A program made the position numbers and the translations under genes. The notes under the pieces are model-generated. The model had not been told where the DNA came from. It did no database searches and saw only the letters and a program-made list of their open reading frames with translations. Shown here in pieces: positions 3,638 to 55,041 of a stretch of 64,000 nt of DNA. Position 1 is the stretch's first letter; each line of letters opens with the position of its first letter. Source of the stretch: Exiguobacterium aurantiacum (GTDB taxonomy: Bacteria > Bacillota > Bacilli > Exiguobacteriales > Exiguobacteriaceae); NCBI RefSeq assembly GCF_024362205.1, contig NZ_CP101462.1:834501-898500 (forward strand). The letters run 5' to 3'.

Positions 3638-4138
3638 ATGGGATTCTTTAAAAAACTATTCGGTGGTAAAGAAGAACAACTTAACGCGGTTTCACCGCTT
3701 ACAGGGAAGGTCATTGACATCACGAACGTTCCTGACCAAGTGTTCTCACAAAAAATGATGGGTGACGGCATCGCCGTCGAACCGACAGACGGCAAAGTCG
3801 TCTCGCCGGTAAACGGTACAATCGCGACTGTCTTCCCGACAAAACACGCGATCGGTATCAACGCTGACAACGGTGCGGAGTACTTGATTCACATCGGTCT
3901 CGACACGGTCAATCTTAAAGGTGAAGGCTTCGAAACGCACGTGACAGAAGGTCAAGCCGTCAAAGCTGGCGACACGCTCGTCACGTTCGACCTCGACTTC
4001 ATCAAAGCGAACGCGCCGTCGACAATCACACCGGTGATTATCACGAACCACGACAACTTCGGTGTGAACAAATTGGTTGCTGAAGGCGACACGGTCACAG
4101 CCGGTTCTTCAGAAGTCGTCGAATTGACGAAAAAATAA
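3638..4138 (+). CDS. crr: PTS glucose-type enzyme IIA component
   Basis: This is a soluble phosphocarrier that takes phosphate from HPr and passes it to a IIB domain. The phosphorylated histidine is His85 in LIHIGLDTV and its partner is His70 in PTKHAIGI. At 166 residues it is a free-standing IIA domain of usual length. The start follows a GGAGGGA RBS. It is monocistronic, with its own terminator. The trehalose permease in this window (20755-22203) has only B and C domains, so this protein is a good candidate for its missing IIA partner; that link is inferred. In Bacilli, IIA-Glc-like proteins can also have regulatory contacts. Confidence 0.93.
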   Translation: MGFFKKLFGGKEEQLNAVSPLTGKVIDITNVPDQVFSQKMMGDGIAVEPTDGKVVSPVNGTIATVFPTKHAIGINADNGAEYLIHIGLDTVNLKGEGFETHVTEGQAVKAGDTLVTFDLDFIKANAPSTITPVIITNHDNFGVNKLVAEGDTVTAGSSEVVELTKK

Positions 4139-4150
4139 GTTGAACATTTT

Positions 4151-4182
4151 ACTCGGAGGCACACGCTTCCGAGTATTTTTTT
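4151..4182 (+). terminator. Intrinsic terminator of crr
   Basis: ACTCGGAGG and CTTCCGAGT form a 9-bp stem (one G-U pair) around a 6-base loop, followed by a run of seven T. Confidence 0.85.
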
Positions 4183-4223
4183 GTGGATTCGGGAACTATA
4201 CTAAAAGAGAGGGGGAGAGACAC

Positions 4224-4823
4224 ATGGATGGAAAAAACGCACCGTACCGGGGTTATGGGGACCGAATTCGAATATTACGTGAGCGGGCTGGCATCTCGGT
4301 CGAGGCACTCGCCGACCGCATCGGCGTCGCCCCATACTTTATTCGCCGGACCGAACTGAGTGAAGTTTACCCGACGATGCCTTACATAGAGGCGCTCGCC
4401 GAGGCGCTCAAGATTGACGCGAACTACTTGGCCCGCCATATTTGGACGGGCGAGTCGCTTAAAGTGCTCATGAAAGGGACGGTCCCTGAGCTCGAGCAGA
4501 TGAAGCTAGCCTACGATGAGGCGATGCACGGCAAGTCGACCGAGGACATGCAGCGGCAGCTCGAGGCGCGCATGCGCATCTTCGACCTGATGCATGAGGA
4601 AGAACTCCGTCGCATCTTCGCCGAGGACGAGGAGCCGACTTCACATCATGCGCTCGAGGCGCTTGTCGATGCCGTGCTCGACCTGGGTCGCTCGCACGAA
4701 CCGACGCATCGGATCGTCCCGTTCGCTCGCTACATTGAGAAACTCGTGCCGGACCAGTTCGTCGACAACTCGTTCCAATATACAGAGTTCGGGGTTGTCG
4801 CTAAATCGTATAAATTGCAGTGA
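4224..4823 (+). CDS. XRE-family helix-turn-helix transcriptional regulator
   Basis: Residues 10-70 form an XRE/Cro helix-turn-helix: YGDRIRILRERAGISVEALA, then IGVAPYFIRRTE, then ALAEALKIDANYL. The rest (to 199 residues) is a charged helical region with no recognised domain, so any ligand is unknown. The start at 4224 was chosen for the GAGGGGGAGAG RBS; earlier in-frame codons run through the crr terminator. The gene is followed by a terminator and then by a SUKH-family gene in the same direction. A role as its regulator is possible but not shown. Confidence 0.8.
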   Translation: MDGKNAPYRGYGDRIRILRERAGISVEALADRIGVAPYFIRRTELSEVYPTMPYIEALAEALKIDANYLARHIWTGESLKVLMKGTVPELEQMKLAYDEAMHGKSTEDMQRQLEARMRIFDLMHEEELRRIFAEDEEPTSHHALEALVDAVLDLGRSHEPTHRIVPFARYIEKLVPDQFVDNSFQYTEFGVVAKSYKLQ

Positions 4824-4826
4824 AGG

Positions 4827-4847
4827 CCGTGGGGGACCACGGTTTTT
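4827..4847 (+). terminator. Intrinsic terminator of the XRE regulator gene
   Basis: CCGTGG-GGGA-CCACGG hairpin followed by five T. Confidence 0.75.
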
Positions 4848-4872
4848 CGCTATGGACGAAAGGAAAAATGTG

Positions 4873-5361
4873 ATGATTGCTGTTCAAGCACTGAAACGAC
4901 GATTGGTGAACAACCGGCTCGATGTCCAGTTAGAAGAAGGATATGTGAACCAACTGACATTCTCCTTCAACGGCCCAGCTACTACGACGGAGCTAGAGCG
5001 GTTGCCGAAAGAGACACCGGCAACGGTCCGTGCATGGTTAGGCGAACATAACGGTGCCAAACTGTTCGAAGACCCGGAGTGTGGCGGAGCAATTGAATTG
5101 TTCTCGATCGATGAGATCCTTGAGCACAAACAGCTCTGGGAATGTCCGGCGCCTTTTCTACCAGTGGGGGCGGGGCGTGACGGAGAATGGATGGTTTGTG
5201 AGTACATAAGTGAGACGGACAATCGGATGTGGATTGGAGAGTTTTTGAGTTTTGACGAAGAGGACGCTAGGTTGAACCGCTTGCCCTTCAACTTTTCGGG
5301 TTGGTTGGATTATGTGATTGTGGCACAAGGTGCCGCGTTTTGGGACTGGTTTCGAACATGA
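4873..5361 (+). CDS. SMI1/KNR4 (SUKH) family protein
   Basis: The protein has about 162 residues and reads as a SUKH domain: an N-terminal helix, LERLPKETPATVRAWL with GAKLF, then EYISETDN and a C-terminal GWLDYVIVAQGAAFWDW. SUKH proteins are often immunity proteins against polymorphic toxins but also occur as housekeeping proteins. No toxin gene lies beside it, so here it is an orphan. The start at 4873 (or GTG at 4870) fits an AAAGGA RBS at 4859-4864; the upstream ATG at 4852 has none. It ends at a hairpin that mainly serves the opposite strand. Confidence 0.7.
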   Translation: MIAVQALKRRLVNNRLDVQLEEGYVNQLTFSFNGPATTTELERLPKETPATVRAWLGEHNGAKLFEDPECGGAIELFSIDEILEHKQLWECPAPFLPVGAGRDGEWMVCEYISETDNRMWIGEFLSFDEEDARLNRLPFNFSGWLDYVIVAQGAAFWDWFRT

Positions 5362-5393
5362 AAAAGAACGGCCGCCCGAATGGGTGGCCGTTC
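5361..5393 (-). terminator. Terminator of the 5400-7962 minus-strand operon
   Basis: GAACGGCCgCCC (5367-5378) pairs with GGGtGGCCGTTC (5382-5393). On the minus strand the stem is followed by CTTTTTC, so it fits the minus-strand operon best; it may also stop the SUKH transcript. Confidence 0.7.
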
Positions 5394-5399
5394 TGTCGT

Positions 5400-5825
5400 T
5401 CAGCGCGCCATGCGCGCGTCGTAGCGCACTTTCGGTCGTGTACCGGCAAGCAGGAAGCCGAGCACGATGTTGAGAATCGTGAGCACCCAACCGACGTAAC
5501 CGAACGTGTAGGCGAGGCTTGCGAGCACTGTCTGCCAGTCGAGTAAGGACGCGGCGTCACCTCGGATAGTGAAACGGATCACTGTGAATCCGATGAGCGT
5601 CGTCGCCGTGATCAAGATGCCGATCCATGCGCCGCCGAACCGCGATGTCTCCGGGCGTCGGCTGACCGGATACCAAAAAGCGAGCGTCCCGAGGAACGTG
5701 CTTCCCGCGTATGCGAGCAAGATTTGCCACAGCGCATCGGCGTCCAAGAAGACGGTATAACAGATGAACGTCGTGAGCGTCGTCATGAAAGTAAAGATTA
5801 AAGCTGCGAGTAATCGTGATCGCAT
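5400..5825 (-). CDS. Small integral membrane protein, four predicted helices
   Basis: I do not recognise the family. The 141-residue product has four hydrophobic stretches (LLAALIFTFMTTLTTFICY, ILLAYAGSTFLGTLAFW, GAWIGILITATTLIGFTVI and a last one ending in ILNIVLGFLLAG) and a basic C-terminus. The start at 5825 has a GAGGAGG RBS nine bases upstream; an earlier in-frame ATG does not. It lies 63 bases downstream of the ABC exporter permease gene and shares its terminator, so it is probably co-transcribed and may be an accessory of the exporter; that is only a positional argument. Confidence 0.65.
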   Translation of the reverse strand: MRSRLLAALIFTFMTTLTTFICYTVFLDADALWQILLAYAGSTFLGTLAFWYPVSRRPETSRFGGAWIGILITATTLIGFTVIRFTIRGDAASLLDWQTVLASLAYTFGYVGWVLTILNIVLGFLLAGTRPKVRYDARMAR

Positions 5826-5888
5826 TGTTCGTTTCCTCCTCATTTTGCACATTCTTTAGAGTATACGAAAACGAAAATGCTGTAAACG

Positions 5889-7082
5889 TTATTGTCGATT
5901 CTGTAATATTTGTCGCCATTGTTTAATCGCGTTGTTGCCGTAGAATAAGACGCCGCCGCGATAAAATTTCGAGCCGACCCACAAAATCACACCAATCGTG
6001 GCGATCATGATGCCGATCGACAAGGCGACTTCCCATACCGGCACGTCGACGAGCATGACGCGGAGGAACATGAGCATCGGCGTGAAGAACGGTACGTACG
6101 ACAAAATCGTGACGATCGGTGCCTCCGGGTTGTTCAAGCCGAACATAGCGGCGAGGAACCCAGCGACGAGCAGCATGATGACCGGCATCGTCATCTGTTG
6201 TGACTCTTCGACCCGGCTGACGAGCGAACCGAGAACGGCGAACATGGCCGCATAAAGCAGATAACCGAGCGTGAAGAACGTCAACAAGTAGACGACGGCC
6301 CGGACGTTGCCTGCGTTGTCGATGACTGACTGGGCCATCTCGTTACTGCGGGCGCTGAAGTAGCCGAAGCCGAGGAAAATCGCGATTTGGAGCAGGGCGA
6401 GCGTCCCGATGGCCGAGATTTTGGCGAGCATATGCGTCACCGGGTGCGTCGTCGAGATGATGAGCTCCATGACGCGCGACGATTTCTCGGTCGTGACCTC
6501 GGTCGAGATCATCGACCCGTACGTGATGATCGAGACGTAGAGCAACATGAGCATGACGTAGACGAACGCGAACGATGAGAACAGCTCGTCCGAGTTTTCC
6601 CCGCCGCGTCCGAGATACGACTCCTCGACCGTGACGGGCTCATTCAACGCCGCGAGGACGGTCGGGTCGATGTTCGACGCCTCGATTAGCTCGGCGTTCC
6701 GAATTTCACGGAGCGCCGTCTGGAGGACCGTCGTGAAGTCCGGTTCCGGCCGTTCCGAGAGCACGCGGGCCGAATCCGCCTCGATGAAGGCGACGATCTC
6801 ATAGTCTCCGTTGTCGAGCCCTTCACGTGCCTCGGACTCGGTGATGGACGCCGATTGGATGTCTTCATAACCAAGCGACTGCATGAGCGTCGTCAGTTCA
6901 TTGTTATCGGTGACGAGGATAGCTTGGGCTTGATCGGTATCCTCGAAGTTCGCGAGCAGACGGTCGATGTTCGTGAAACCGAAAATGAACAAAATCGTCA
7001 ACAGCGTCGAGATGAGGAACGCCTTCGAGCGCAATTTCGAGCGTAGCGTGAACGAGTAGAGTGGTCCGAAGTTATGAAACAT
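5889..7082 (-). CDS. yhaP: ABC-2 type exporter permease (NatB/YhaP-like)
   Basis: This is a membrane partner of the ATPase encoded just upstream. It has 397 residues with an N-terminal membrane helix, a long extracytoplasmic region of about 150 residues, then five or six membrane helices between residues 180 and 375. This is the architecture of NatB/YhaP, for which Na+ or drug export has been proposed. The start overlaps the end of the ATPase gene by 11 bases and has an AAGGAGGT RBS inside that gene, implying translational coupling. The substrate cannot be told from sequence. Confidence 0.85.
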   Translation of the reverse strand: MFHNFGPLYSFTLRSKLRSKAFLISTLLTILFIFGFTNIDRLLANFEDTDQAQAILVTDNNELTTLMQSLGYEDIQSASITESEAREGLDNGDYEIVAFIEADSARVLSERPEPDFTTVLQTALREIRNAELIEASNIDPTVLAALNEPVTVEESYLGRGGENSDELFSSFAFVYVMLMLLYVSIITYGSMISTEVTTEKSSRVMELIISTTHPVTHMLAKISAIGTLALLQIAIFLGFGYFSARSNEMAQSVIDNAGNVRAVVYLLTFFTLGYLLYAAMFAVLGSLVSRVEESQQMTMPVIMLLVAGFLAAMFGLNNPEAPIVTILSYVPFFTPMLMFLRVMLVDVPVWEVALSIGIMIATIGVILWVGSKFYRGGVLFYGNNAIKQWRQILQNRQ

Positions 7083-41625: not shown

Positions 41626-43014
41626 ATGATTATTAATAACAACATGAACGCAATGAACGCACACCGTAACATGTCTTTCAACACAACACAGACTGGTAAA
41701 TCGATGGAGAAACTTTCTTCAGGTCTTCGCATCAACCGTGCTGGCGATGACGCTGCAGGTCTTGCAATCTCTGAAAAAATGCGTGGACAAATTCGCGGTC
41801 TTGATCAAGCGACACGTAACTCACAAGACTCAATTTCATTGATTCAAACTGCTGAAGGTGCATTGAATGAAACACATTCAATCCTTCAACGTATGCGTGA
41901 ATTAGCTGTTCAATCAGGAAACGATACGAACACAGTGGATGACAGAAATGAAATCCAAAAAGAAATTTCGCAATTAACTTCTGAAGTTGATCGTATTTCG
42001 GCAACGACAGAATTTAACACTAAAAAGCTATTGAATGGTGAGTCTGGTAGTAAAGCAAACTTCGGCTCTAATGCGAACGTATTGATGGCTTCGGCTAGTG
42101 AGCAAGCTGCAGCTGGAACGTATGCAGTTGTTACAACTACAGCGGCTGAACAAGCTTTAACAACAGGAGCTACGTTTGCAAACGCTGCAATTACTGCACC
42201 ATTAAATGGCGCACAAACAGTAAAAATTAACAACCAAAACATCAACTTTAACGCAGTTGCCGGTGATGCTGAAGCGACTGCTACAAACTTCATTAATGCA
42301 CTTAACAGTGCTAATGTTGGTTTGACTGCAAATGGTGATGCAGCTAATGGTATTGATTTGAATTCATTAAAATACGGTTCTGATCAATCAATCACAATTG
42401 AAGCAAGCGCAATTACTGCTGCAATGGGATTGACTACAGATGCAACAACAAACACTTCGGATATCGGAGTTGATGTAGCTGGTACAATTAACGGTGTTGC
42501 TGCTAGTGGAAAAGGCACTACATTGACAGGTAGTGGAGCGTCTACTGGTGTTTCGGTAACGCTTACTAACACTTCTGCCTCTGCAGCTGCTGGAGCACGA
42601 GGAGATGTAGTAGTAACTCAAAATGCATTGACTGCTCAAATTGGTGCAAATGCTGATCAAAATATCTCTATCAGTATCTCAAGCATGTCTTCATCAGACT
42701 TGGGAATCGCTGGTTTAGATTTGACATCACAGTCAGGTGCTAACTCTGCTATTACTCTCGTTGACAATGCAATCAAGTCAGTTTCTGGAGAACGTTCAAA
42801 ACTAGGTTCTGTGCAAAACCGTCTTGAGCACACAATTAACAACTTGAGTGTTGGAGCTGAAAACCTCCAAGCTGCTGAATCACGTGTACGTGACGTTGAT
42901 ATGGCGAAAGAGATGATGAGCTTTACGAAGAACAACATCCTCAACCAAGCTGCGCAAGCAATGATGGCTCAATCGAATTCCCAACCGCAGGCAGTACTTC
43001 AACTCCTTCGGTAA
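41626..43014 (+). CDS. hag: Flagellin Hag; reading frame of the unspliced message
   Basis: This is the main filament protein. The 462-residue product has the conserved N-terminal domain (MIINNNMNAMNAHRNM, SGLRINRAGDDAAGLAISEK, LLQRMREL-like ILQRMRELAVQSGNDT) and C-terminal domain (SVGAENLQAAESRVRDVDMA, NNILNQAAQAMMAQ). Between them is an exposed region of about 200 residues rich in Thr, Ala, Asn. The start at 41626 follows GGAGGGA. The last 45 bases, 42970-43014, appear to belong to a group I intron and encode QSNSQPQAVLQLLR plus stop. The spliced message would end in QANQQPQAVLQLLR from 43366-43410, giving the same length. Codon use is AT-richer than in neighbours. Confidence 0.93.
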   Translation: MIINNNMNAMNAHRNMSFNTTQTGKSMEKLSSGLRINRAGDDAAGLAISEKMRGQIRGLDQATRNSQDSISLIQTAEGALNETHSILQRMRELAVQSGNDTNTVDDRNEIQKEISQLTSEVDRISATTEFNTKKLLNGESGSKANFGSNANVLMASASEQAAAGTYAVVTTTAAEQALTTGATFANAAITAPLNGAQTVKINNQNINFNAVAGDAEATATNFINALNSANVGLTANGDAANGIDLNSLKYGSDQSITIEASAITAAMGLTTDATTNTSDIGVDVAGTINGVAASGKGTTLTGSGASTGVSVTLTNTSASAAAGARGDVVVTQNALTAQIGANADQNISISISSMSSSDLGIAGLDLTSQSGANSAITLVDNAIKSVSGERSKLGSVQNRLEHTINNLSVGAENLQAAESRVRDVDMAKEMMSFTKNNILNQAAQAMMAQSNSQPQAVLQLLR

Positions 43015-43365
43015 GGAATGACGGGCGTCTTATCTGGTAACGGATAAGAGTACAACTGGGTGAATTGCTGGGACTCCTTAGAGCCCTCCTTACGACAACG
43101 TGACTGGAAACGGTGAGCGTGAACGTTTTGAAAAAAGGAAGGGATTGGACAATCAGCAGCCAAGCATCTGTCAGGAAACTGTGATGAAGGTTCAACGACT
43201 AGGATGAACGACCTACCGACTTAACGTCCATGGTTATGAGATCCGTACCTCGTAAACGGCGAGGGAAGTGCCCAGCCCCTACTTTACAATAACATTTGTT
43301 TTTATATCGATATTGTAAAAGGGTGAAGATATAGTCTGGTCCATATTGAAAAATATGGGGAATCG
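42970..43365 (+). ncRNA. Group I intron (IA-like) inside the hag gene
   Basis: The conserved core elements are visible in order: P (GAATTGCTGGGA near 43061-43072), Q (AATCAGCAGCCAAG near 43150-43163), R (GGTTCAACGACTA near 43188-43200) and S (AAGATATAGTC near 43326-43336). GACTA of R and TAGTC of S form P7; a P2-like hairpin CTTATC/GATAAG lies at about 43029-43048, and CCCTCCTT pairs with AAGGAAGGG as P5. The likely 5' site is after U42969 (GGCT|CAAT), and the 3' site after G43365 (AATCG|CAAGC). A pair four bases later (42973/43369) would also stay in frame. I could not find a convincing P1 pairing, so the exact ends need testing. The length is about 396 bases. Confidence 0.8.
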
Positions 43366-43410
43366 CAAGCAAACCAACAGCCGCAAGCTGTGCTTCAATT
43401 GCTCCGTTAA
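43366..43410 (+). other. hag: Second exon of hag
   Basis: These 45 bases encode QANQQPQAVLQLLR and a TAA stop, the normal flagellin C-terminus (compare AMLAQANQQPQ in other Bacilli). They have no start codon or RBS and make sense only when joined to 42969 by splicing. Confidence 0.82.
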
Positions 43411-43438: not shown

Positions 43439-44290
43439 CTAAAAACCGTGGAGCTCATGCTTCACGGTTTTCACGTCTTGCCATTTGTAGACAACTGACC
43501 AATATGTTCGATTTAAGCGCCGGGCAATCTCACGGTCAGTGATTTCTTGGTGTTTCCATTTAATCAATAAAGCGATTTCTTCACTTGAATATGGACGGGC
43601 TGGGATTGATACCCGGACCGAATAATCAGGATGTGAGATTTTGTAGTGAGCGATTTCTGAAGCGAGACGTGTCTCCCAATCCAATTTATACGCAAAGTCT
43701 GGCAACTCAGTCAGATAAAATTTCAACATATCAAGTATGTGAAATGTATCGATGACTTTAGTTGTTTTAAGATAATAGCCTTTCCCACTTGGCGTACCTG
43801 ACGTCCTTACATTGACGTGAAAGTGCTCGGATAAGAAAACTACCAGTTTTTCTAACTGTTCTTTAGAGAAAGCTTGTAAATAGAAGGCGATGTGTGGTGT
43901 GAATTGGATTTCTTTTTTCTTGTGATTGAACCGTTTACTAAGTAGAAGGGAACCATCATCGAGATAAAGCGTGAGAAGAAATGAAGGGTGACGAATGTCT
44001 TCGAGCAATTCGAACGGAATCTGTTTTGTATTGTTTGGATAGAATAGTGGAAACAATCTCGTCATGAGTGGAATCGAACGAGATACCAAGTTGTTGCCGC
44101 GTAAATACAGTAAATTAGGAAGCTTTCGTTGCTTCCACTCCCGGTAGCTTAATTGTCCTATGCTAAAATGTTCGCGGTAGCTGTTATTCACACGTCGATC
44201 GTACACATAACATTTCGTGATTTCTCCATCCCCTAAAATACTCGCGACCAATATGGCGATTTGCTCCTCTGAAAGCCCTTCCCACTCCAT
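43439..44290 (-). CDS. LAGLIDADG homing endonuclease, free-standing beside the hag intron
   Basis: This 283-residue DNA endonuclease has two LAGLIDADG motifs: AILVASILGDGE (acidic Asp21) and LLTLYLDDGSL (Asp111 or Asp112), so it can act as a monomer. The two repeats are followed by a C-terminal helix-turn-helix (SSEEIALLIKWKHQEITDRE, then IARRLNRTYWSVV) that may add DNA contacts. It lies outside the intron, 28 bases after exon 2 of hag, in the opposite direction, with an AAGGGAGAG RBS. It is AT-rich like its surroundings. The natural guess is that it cuts intronless hag alleles; not proven. Confidence 0.85.
   Translation of the reverse strand: MEWEGLSEEQIAILVASILGDGEITKCYVYDRRVNNSYREHFSIGQLSYREWKQRKLPNLLYLRGNNLVSRSIPLMTRLFPLFYPNNTKQIPFELLEDIRHPSFLLTLYLDDGSLLLSKRFNHKKKEIQFTPHIAFYLQAFSKEQLEKLVVFLSEHFHVNVRTSGTPSGKGYYLKTTKVIDTFHILDMLKFYLTELPDFAYKLDWETRLASEIAHYKISHPDYSVRVSIPARPYSSEEIALLIKWKHQEITDREIARRLNRTYWSVVYKWQDVKTVKHELHGF
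43442..43471. terminator. Hairpin terminator after hag exon 2, within the end of the endonuclease gene
   Basis: AAAACCGTGGAGC-TCAT-GCTTCACGGTTTT stem (one G-U). It can end hag transcription; on the minus strand its T-run overlaps the endonuclease stop codon, so it may serve both. Confidence 0.72.
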
Positions 44291-50794: not shown

Positions 50795-51619
50795 TTAGTT
50801 CAATAATTGTAGCACGCCTTGCGGCAACGCGTTCGACTGGGCGATCATCGCCATGCCTGACTGGTTCAAAATGTTGAGGCGAGCGAAGTCCATCATTTCG
50901 CGGGCCATATCGGCGTCGCGGATGCGAGATTCGGACGCCGTCAAGTTCTCGGAGCCGATTGTGACGACGCTGACGTTCGCCTCGAGCCGGTTCTGGATAG
51001 CACCGAGCTTCGAACGTTCGAGCGAGACCGTATTGATGGCCGCATCGAACTTGGCGATGGCGTTTCCGGCTCCGTTCGGTGTCGTCACATTAATACCATT
51101 GATTCCAAGTGCCGGTGCACGCATATCCTTCACATTTAAGACAACGCCTTCGCCACTGCCAGCACCGAGTTGGAAGAAGAGGGTGTCTTTCCCAGCGATA
51201 TAGTCACCGTTCATAATTTTCTTCGAGTTAAACTCGGTCGTCTCGGCGATCCGGGTTACTTCAGCCGTGAGCGCCGTGATCTCGTCTTGAATCGCCTTGG
51301 CGTCATCACCACTGAGCGTACCGTTCGAAGCTTGAACCGACAGCTCGCGCATTCGTTGGAGGAGGGCGTGCGTCTCGTTCATACCGCCTTCAAGTGTCTG
51401 CGTGAGTGAGATGCCATCGAGCGTGTTGCGTTCGGCCATCGACAGTGAGTCGAGACGCATGCGCATCTTCTCAGAGATGGCGAGCCCGGCCGCGTCGTCT
51501 GATGCCTTGTTGATGCGAACACCGCTCGAGAGACGGTCCATCGTCTTTTTCATCGTTGTCTGATTAAGTGATAGAGACGTGTAGGCTTTCAAAGCTTGCA
51601 CGTTATTGGTAATTTTCAT
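50795..51619 (-). CDS. Second flagellin
   Basis: A short flagellin of 274 residues, close to the minimal D0-D1 size. Its N-terminal domain has SSGVRINKASDDAAGLAISE and LLQRMRELSVQASNGTLSGD; the C-terminal domain has SRIRDADMAREMMDFARLNI and ends NALPQGVLQLLN. It has no large variable region, no intron and the base use of the neighbouring genes, unlike hag. It lies in its own operon with a second fliS. The RBS is GGAGGAAA inside the preceding gene, which it overlaps by 17 bases. Confidence 0.94.
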   Translation of the reverse strand: MKITNNVQALKAYTSLSLNQTTMKKTMDRLSSGVRINKASDDAAGLAISEKMRMRLDSLSMAERNTLDGISLTQTLEGGMNETHALLQRMRELSVQASNGTLSGDDAKAIQDEITALTAEVTRIAETTEFNSKKIMNGDYIAGKDTLFFQLGAGSGEGVVLNVKDMRAPALGINGINVTTPNGAGNAIAKFDAAINTVSLERSKLGAIQNRLEANVSVVTIGSENLTASESRIRDADMAREMMDFARLNILNQSGMAMIAQSNALPQGVLQLLN

Positions 51620-54528: not shown

Positions 54529-54801
54529 ACAGCTGCACCGTCCTTTTCGTATTGGATTTTCAGGCTCGGCCATATCAGATGGAACACAAACCTAAATCAT
54601 CCCTCCCATGATATATCACAAAATATGTAAATTCAATAAGGTGATATGAAAAGTAGGGAAATATAATTCCAATGTAAGCCAAATGCGAATTCGTTTACAA
54701 AAATTTGAGAAAGTGTTTGTCACGCCTGCAAGAAGGTGGTAAGATTACCGATAGAGGGAAAGCCTCTGTATTCTTCAATGGTGAAAGGAATGGATTTACA
54801 C

Positions 54802-54999
54802 ATGGTAGGTAAAGTAAAATGGTTTAACTCAGAAAAAGGTTTTGGATTCATCGAAGTAGAAGGCGGCAAAGACGTATTCGTACACTTCTCAGCAATCCAA
54901 ACTGACGGCTACAAATCACTTGACGAAGGTCAAGAGGTAGAGTTTGAAATCGTTGATGGCGAGCGTGGCCCACAAGCGGCTAACGTTACAAAATTATAA
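54802..54999 (+). CDS. Cold-shock protein, CspA/CspB type
   Basis: A 65-residue RNA chaperone with [20 protein letters not shown] and [10 protein letters not shown], containing both RNA-binding motifs (KGFGFI and VFVHF). The start at 54802 gives the usual length; an ATG at 54790 would add four residues and has a nearer GAAAGGA. The 5' region from 54640 may be a cold-responsive leader, as in many csp genes. Confidence 0.94.
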
Positions 55000-55011
55000 T
55001 TTCGAACCGCG

Positions 55012-55041
55012 AGTCGGCTCCTAACGGGGCCGACTTTTTTG
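55012..55041 (+). terminator. Terminator of the cold-shock gene
   Basis: AGTCGGCTCC-TAAC-GGGGCCGACT with T6. Confidence 0.88.

Follow-up and report, generated by a model that had tools for sequence, protein, structure and literature searches.

A group I intron with a spare flagellin gene end and an adjoining free-standing LAGLIDADG endonuclease at the 3′ end of hag: a possible loose mobile cassette in Exiguobacterium aurantiacum

The flagellin gene hag of Exiguobacterium aurantiacum is interrupted near its 3′ end by a group I intron that contains no endonuclease gene, while an endonuclease ORF of the LAGLIDADG type lies outside the intron, beyond exon 2. This layout raises the question of whether the neighbouring enzyme spreads the intron by cleaving intron-free hag, as the original prediction proposed, and of how a ribozyme persists in such a heavily translated gene. 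We analyzed the locus in a window of 64,000 nucleotides (contig NZ_CP101462.1, positions 834,501 to 898,500), which comes from a genome belonging to a 38-genome family. In window coordinates, the features are as follows.

41626–42969, + strand: hag (flagellin) exon 1, ending ...ATGATGGCT; Pfam Flagellin_N and Flagellin_C matches; splice site from allele comparison
42970–43365, + strand: group I intron, 396 nt; Rfam RF00028, 82.1 bits; preceding U, terminal G and P1 pairing
42970–43014, + strand: copy 1, a recoded spare flagellin C-terminus QSNSQPQAVLQLLR with stop codon, at the 5′ end of the intron
43023–43026, + strand: internal guide sequence GGGC, of which GGC pairs with exon GCU (42967–42969)
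43366–43410, + strand: hag exon 2, QANQQPQAVLQLLR with stop codon; from allele comparison
43439–44290, − strand: free-standing LAGLIDADG endonuclease gene, 283 aa; from ORF, Pfam, motifs, AlphaFold2 model and PDB fold match
44228–44230, − strand: codon of D21, the acidic residue of LAGLIDADG motif 1; from the alignment of relatives
43955–43960, − strand: codons of D111 and D112, LAGLIDADG motif 2; from the alignment of relatives
43445–43585, − strand: C-terminal helix-turn-helix-like region, residues 236–282; three model helices and weak HTH matches in relatives
43442–43471, strand not assigned: strong hairpin within the last endonuclease codons; from folding energy on both strands

The endonuclease gene is placed as had been claimed, outside the flagellin intron and opposite to hag in orientation. 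Since the comparison of alleles fixes exon 2 at 43366–43410, the gap between its end and the endonuclease stop codon at 43439 is 28 bp, again as claimed. The hairpin at 43442–43471 has folding energies of −19.9 and −18.5 kcal/mol on the two strands and z-scores of about −6 (−6.1 for the −19.9 value). It is absent from the output of the consensus terminator scan, and it probably acts as a terminator common to the converging hag and endonuclease genes. In a second genus, a hairpin with a T-run was also seen by eye 3′ of hag, directly before the endonuclease gene. Elsewhere in the window, a cspA thermoregulator RNA matches 54652–55040 (+ strand) with 78.9 bits, barely above the gathering score of 78, and at about 50801–51040 (− strand) the window encodes a second protein whose C-terminus resembles that of flagellin, with 63% identity to the hag end and no intron within the match.

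The Rfam group I intron match covers 42999–43358, and the exact intron ends at 42970 and 43365 were obtained by comparing alleles. The intron-bearing hag genes of the family share the pattern GCT/CAA ... G/CAAGC, in which the slashes mark the intron ends. We compared 79 distinct alleles, taken from the genomes and loci retrieved. All of them (79/79) have U directly before the intron, compared with 11/25 among the hag ends of the family that lack an intron (p = 5.6e-11). The intron ends in G in 78/78 alleles whose exon 2 fits the search pattern, and the one allele that departs from the pattern (G059) also shows a terminal G, with an exon 2 that is intact by eye. In 77/79 alleles, exon GCU is paired with the guide GGC. 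In L157, exon TCU is accompanied by guide GGA, a two-sided change that keeps the P1 pairing, and in L174 exon GCU is accompanied by guide GGU. All the characteristic features of a group I intron are present: the core is conserved, the 5′ splice site has its U.G, and both the terminal G and the P1 pairing are found. GCU/CAA was taken as the 5′ splice site since it fits all 79 alleles together with the P1 changes, and the boundaries 42970–43365 are strongly supported by this allele comparison. The 5′ boundary given by Rfam (42999, with P1 formed by CUCCUU and AAGGA) was rejected, as splicing there would yield a flagellin with a 14-residue tandem extension. Splicing between GCU and CAAGC is predicted to restore the C-terminus QANQQPQAVLQLLR.

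The endonuclease ORF is intact and encodes 283 residues from an ATG start. Its sole Pfam family is LAGLIDADG_2 (residues 12–168, E = 6.6e-12), and the two expected motifs were found as ILVASILGDGEI, which contains D21, and LLTLYLDDGSL, which contains D111 and D112. The AlphaFold2 model shows a mean pLDDT of 91.2, and its best PDB folds are the monomeric I-WcaI and I-SceI at 21–22% identity; the sequence similarity to I-SceI is weak (E = 0.0024). Among 65 aligned relatives, six of which contain internal stops, D21 is kept in 60 and falls in a gap in the remaining five, and D111 and D112 are each aspartate in 64. The four closest endonuclease genes give a pN/pS of 0.14. With two motifs, catalytic acidic residues and a matching fold all present, the protein is predicted to be a LAGLIDADG homing endonuclease; NCBIfam gave no family for it. 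The C-terminal helix-turn-helix described in the original prediction is seen in the model as a unit of three helices (236–247, 252–259 and 263–282) resembling this motif. The Pfam search of the window protein itself gave no HTH match, and the matches among 17 relatives, HTH_23 in eight and Myb_DNA-bind_6 in two, are weak (best E = 6.1e-4). An N-terminal extension resembling a second helix-turn-helix was observed in the endonucleases of L066 (G059) and L067 (G038). A phage origin was considered and rejected: relatives number zero in 50,697 phage records, and none of ten pattern matches in viral contigs was confirmed.

A scan of public genome contigs yielded 71 endonuclease loci. Two of these, L110 and L111, represent a contig duplicated in a single genome, and L170 and L176 also come from the same genome as each other. 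In 64 of the 71, a hag group I intron lies upstream on the opposite strand, within 250 bp in 45 and farther away in 19; the endonuclease is therefore not widespread without any hag intron. In one of the 64 (L151), only the upstream hag intron site is filled. The endonuclease stands beside an intron-free hag in four Exiguobacterium loci (L150, L152, L155 and L165) and one Sporosarcina locus (L156), and no hag was found at two loci on short contig ends (L130 and L159). The relatives include named Exiguobacterium species at 72–80% identity. The record labelled Pseudomonas sp. ISL-84 (L139) carries a hag locus of the Bacillus type, and the tree places it with Bacillus sp. J33; this record is probably mislabelled or contaminated. 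Tandem flagellin genes were observed in L071 (G016, 3691–6106), with an intron in the first and an endonuclease remnant between them; the second is intron-free, with GCG replacing GCT at the insertion site.

Sorting 151 relatives of the window genome by hand, with strict intron filters that may miss weak introns, gave 18 genomes with the intron and an intact or broken endonuclease, five with the endonuclease alone, nine with the intron alone and 119 with neither (Fisher p = 1.2e-12). In the 38-genome family, the association is weaker, with p = 0.028, or 1.6e-5 when only the closer endonuclease type is counted. The 27 introns at the window site are accompanied by an intact endonuclease frame in 13 cases, a broken one in five and none in nine, and the endonuclease occurs without the intron in five Exiguobacterium genomes, once with two in-frame stops. 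The suggested check that the two elements are always found together thus holds as a strong association and fails as a rule, given these single-element genomes, L156, and L151 with only the other intron. We also compared endonuclease and intron distances over 45 loci plus the window, with the distance of the hag N-terminus as the control. The correlation is r = 0.45, and the partial r is 0.38 with the hag N-terminus controlled, a value reached in 0/2000 permutations. On joint transmission the observations are divided: the association and the positive partial correlation speak for it, and the single-element genomes against strict linkage.

These exceptions bear on an alternative in which the two elements are independent neighbours. 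The endonuclease would home alone into the gap after hag by targeting the conserved hag end, and the intron would have settled in the same hot spot, gaining little from the enzyme. The genes beside intron-free hag and the nine introns without an endonuclease agree with this, as does the clade (support 100/100) formed by the Exiguobacterium genes beside intron-free hag in the tree of 65 endonucleases; this tree is rooted at the midpoint only, includes the six rows with internal stops, and omits L165 from the 'intron absent' label though it is intron-free. However, an intron accompanies most endonuclease loci, and the distances of the two elements correlate beyond hag divergence. We regard independent neighbours as unlikely, though still the strongest of the alternatives.

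More surprising than the position of the endonuclease is a conserved spare gene end. The hag frame is already complete inside the intron, with a C-terminus and a stop codon ending at 43014, and exon 2 then codes for this end a second time. In frame, the first 45 nt of the intron read as QSNSQPQAVLQLLR and a stop codon, and exon 2 reads as QANQQPQAVLQLLR and a stop codon, with 14 codons in each. Since the intron starts with this copy and its stop just 5′ of the guide sequence, the unspliced message should also encode a full-length flagellin. Both messages encode 462 residues (461 after Met), and the two products of the window differ at two residues. Copy 1 is intact in 76/79 distinct alleles, being missing in G059 and G070 and frameshifted in L170, and its stop codon lies 7–16 nt before the guide sequence. 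Exon 2 is intact in 78/79 alleles by pattern, in addition to G059 mentioned above. The pN/pS of copy 1 is 0.22 in frame versus 0.93 and 3.47 in the shifted frames, and that of exon 2 is 0.12 versus 1.07 and 5.64. By these ratios, both ends evolve as coding sequence under coding selection, which suggests that both flagellin forms are, or were, translated.

The two ends have diverged strongly within alleles (synonymous pS 0.80). They match over the first 15 nt in 0/76 alleles, with a median of six mismatches. Copy 1 varies in amino acids chiefly at codons 2–6, with some changes at codons 7, 8 and 14, and VLQLL (codons 9–13) is invariant in both copy 1 and exon 2. Mismatch near the insertion site fits the expectation that the spare must not rebuild the endonuclease target. 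In a stricter test for repulsion, the within-allele identity of the two ends over the first 15 nt was not below that of random pairing (0.625 versus 0.632), and over all 45 nt it was above it (0.707 versus 0.686). A second hag intron site further upstream is filled in 27 of the 64 intron-bearing loci. These introns, at loci including L116, L119, L121–L128, L132, L133, L138 and L139, follow RDVDYA or a similar sequence and leave a very short exon between the two introns. In those inspected by eye, there is no spare copy and the hag frame reaches a stop within a few codons. In the literature searched, which covered the primary flagellin-intron papers through citations, no description emerged of the window endonuclease, of a gene end duplicated within a group I intron, or of a ribozyme carrying the end of its host gene with the endonuclease outside.

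Two gene ends might also serve as a switch, in which splicing, for example with temperature, alters the flagellin C-terminus and selection maintains this change. The coding selection on both ends and the consistent difference in codons 2–6 are compatible with regulated isoforms, and an excerpt of PMC4853749 describes temperature-dependent splicing of the flagellin intron in thermophilic Bacillus species. However, the differing residues of copy 1 vary from lineage to lineage (M, T, L, Q, A or S at codon 5), unlike a specific second form, and we consider a switch improbable. A maturase, an endonuclease-like protein aiding intron splicing in the way that LAGLIDADG proteins can (PMC3984707, in excerpt), is very improbable because introns persist without the gene (nine of 27 have none nearby and five a broken one, with exon 2 still intact); moreover, the catalytic aspartates are kept and the gene also occurs beside intron-free hag.

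Co-conversion of the flanking DNA was examined in the second genus. Among 14 intron-bearing genomes of this genus, exon 2 shows almost no synonymous variation (pS 0.03), and pS is 0.63 for flaG, 0.69 for fliS, 0.68 for the intron-free hag ends of four genomes and 0.34 for copy 1, inside the intron. The uniformity of exon 2 resembles co-conversion, yet copy 1 is not uniform, and the pattern is ambiguous: simple co-transfer does not predict an exon 2 far more uniform than copy 1. Candidate explanations are that exon 2 is held constant because it forms a half-site for the endonuclease, or because it pairs with the intron.

On balance, we lean towards a reading in which the 3′ end of hag houses a single loose mobile cassette, made up of the intron, the spare gene end and the outside endonuclease. 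The endonuclease would cleave hag alleles that lack the intron, at the insertion site or close to it, and the ensuing repair would copy in the intron, exon 2 and the endonuclease gene together. The intron would split the target and so protect its own allele, and the spare would be rewritten so that exon 1 plus the spare does not rebuild that target. The spare end would also make the intron harmless even without splicing. We lean to the cassette because the U before the intron is universal, copy 1 is nearly always intact and the P1 pairing is kept through a two-sided change; because both ends have low pN/pS, copy 1 differs from exon 2 at its start and 64/71 loci carry an intron; and because endonuclease and intron distances correlate beyond hag divergence, with the catalytic aspartates and a low endonuclease pN/pS maintained. 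Against it stand the endonucleases beside intron-free hag, the nine introns without an endonuclease, the 3/79 alleles without an intact spare, the negative repulsion test, and the greater uniformity of exon 2 over copy 1 in one genus. The sequence pattern fits collaborative homing, here in bacterial chromosomes. The proposed spread of the intron through cleavage of intron-free hag is partly supported by these comparisons, and the collaborative reading put forward originally appears plausible and the best available, with real exceptions.

A further proposal, which we hold tentatively and at slightly less than even confidence, is that of a self-insuring group I intron. The rewritten host gene end would let the host protein form from either the spliced or the unspliced message, and the adjacent endonuclease would impose this rewriting, since an unaltered spare joined to exon 1 would be cut by it. 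The layout would be old, spread across several Bacillales families, and would explain how the ribozyme has persisted although the flagellin gene is so heavily translated. In bacteria, group I introns within protein-coding genes are considered costly, as translation interferes with folding and splicing (PMC3984707, in excerpt). If the proposal is correct, an intron bringing its own spare gene end avoids this cost, which is testable in one gene, and collaborative homing, known from phages, would also operate by means of a LAGLIDADG enzyme on the chromosomes of many Bacillales genera. Since relatives carry the endonuclease only, the intron only, both, or decayed versions, the steps of mobile-intron formation and decay can be studied directly.

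To place the hag locus among known systems, we compared it with four kinds of element, using excerpts of the cited papers. Collaborative homing is described for F-CphI and the psbA intron of cyanophage S-PM2 (PMC6083498; reviewed in PMC3984707), and PMC10448857 describes another phage case with the endonuclease gene beside rather than inside the intron. As in F-CphI/psbA, the hag intron lacks an endonuclease gene of its own, a free-standing one adjoins the intron-bearing gene, and the intron is expected to block self-cleavage; cleavage by the hag enzyme is predicted. Unlike F-CphI, which belongs to a phage and is of the Endo VII type, the hag system resides in bacterial chromosomes of many genera, uses a LAGLIDADG enzyme and has an intron that carries a spare gene end. 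For thermophilic Bacillus and Geobacillus, PMC3984707 and PMC4853749 cite Hayakawa and Ishizuka (2009, 2012) on flagellin genes with group I introns, which are reported as temperature-dependent. These introns share the gene, the RNA class and the order Bacillales with the hag intron, and Geobacillus jurassicus (L173) has an intron at the same site, with a spare end and an endonuclease remnant.

In fungal mitochondria, hybrid genes whose C-termini are supplied by endonuclease elements are described for Glomus atp6, atp9, cox2 and nad3 (PMC3630166) and for Phlebia atp6 and cox2 (PMC4019555). The gene ends supplied by the Glomus elements are 64–81% identical in DNA and 94–100% identical in protein (PMC3630166). 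As at hag, a mobile element with an endonuclease provides a recoded gene end upstream and leaves the native end downstream. The endonuclease ORF of the fungal elements lies between the two ends, whereas at hag a ribozyme occupies this position and the endonuclease lies beyond exon 2; furthermore, the downstream end of hag remains under coding selection and is positioned to be joined by splicing. Lastly, the enzyme shares the two-motif monomeric LAGLIDADG fold with I-SceI and I-WcaI, and differs from them as a free-standing bacterial gene product with an added C-terminal helix-turn-helix-like region.
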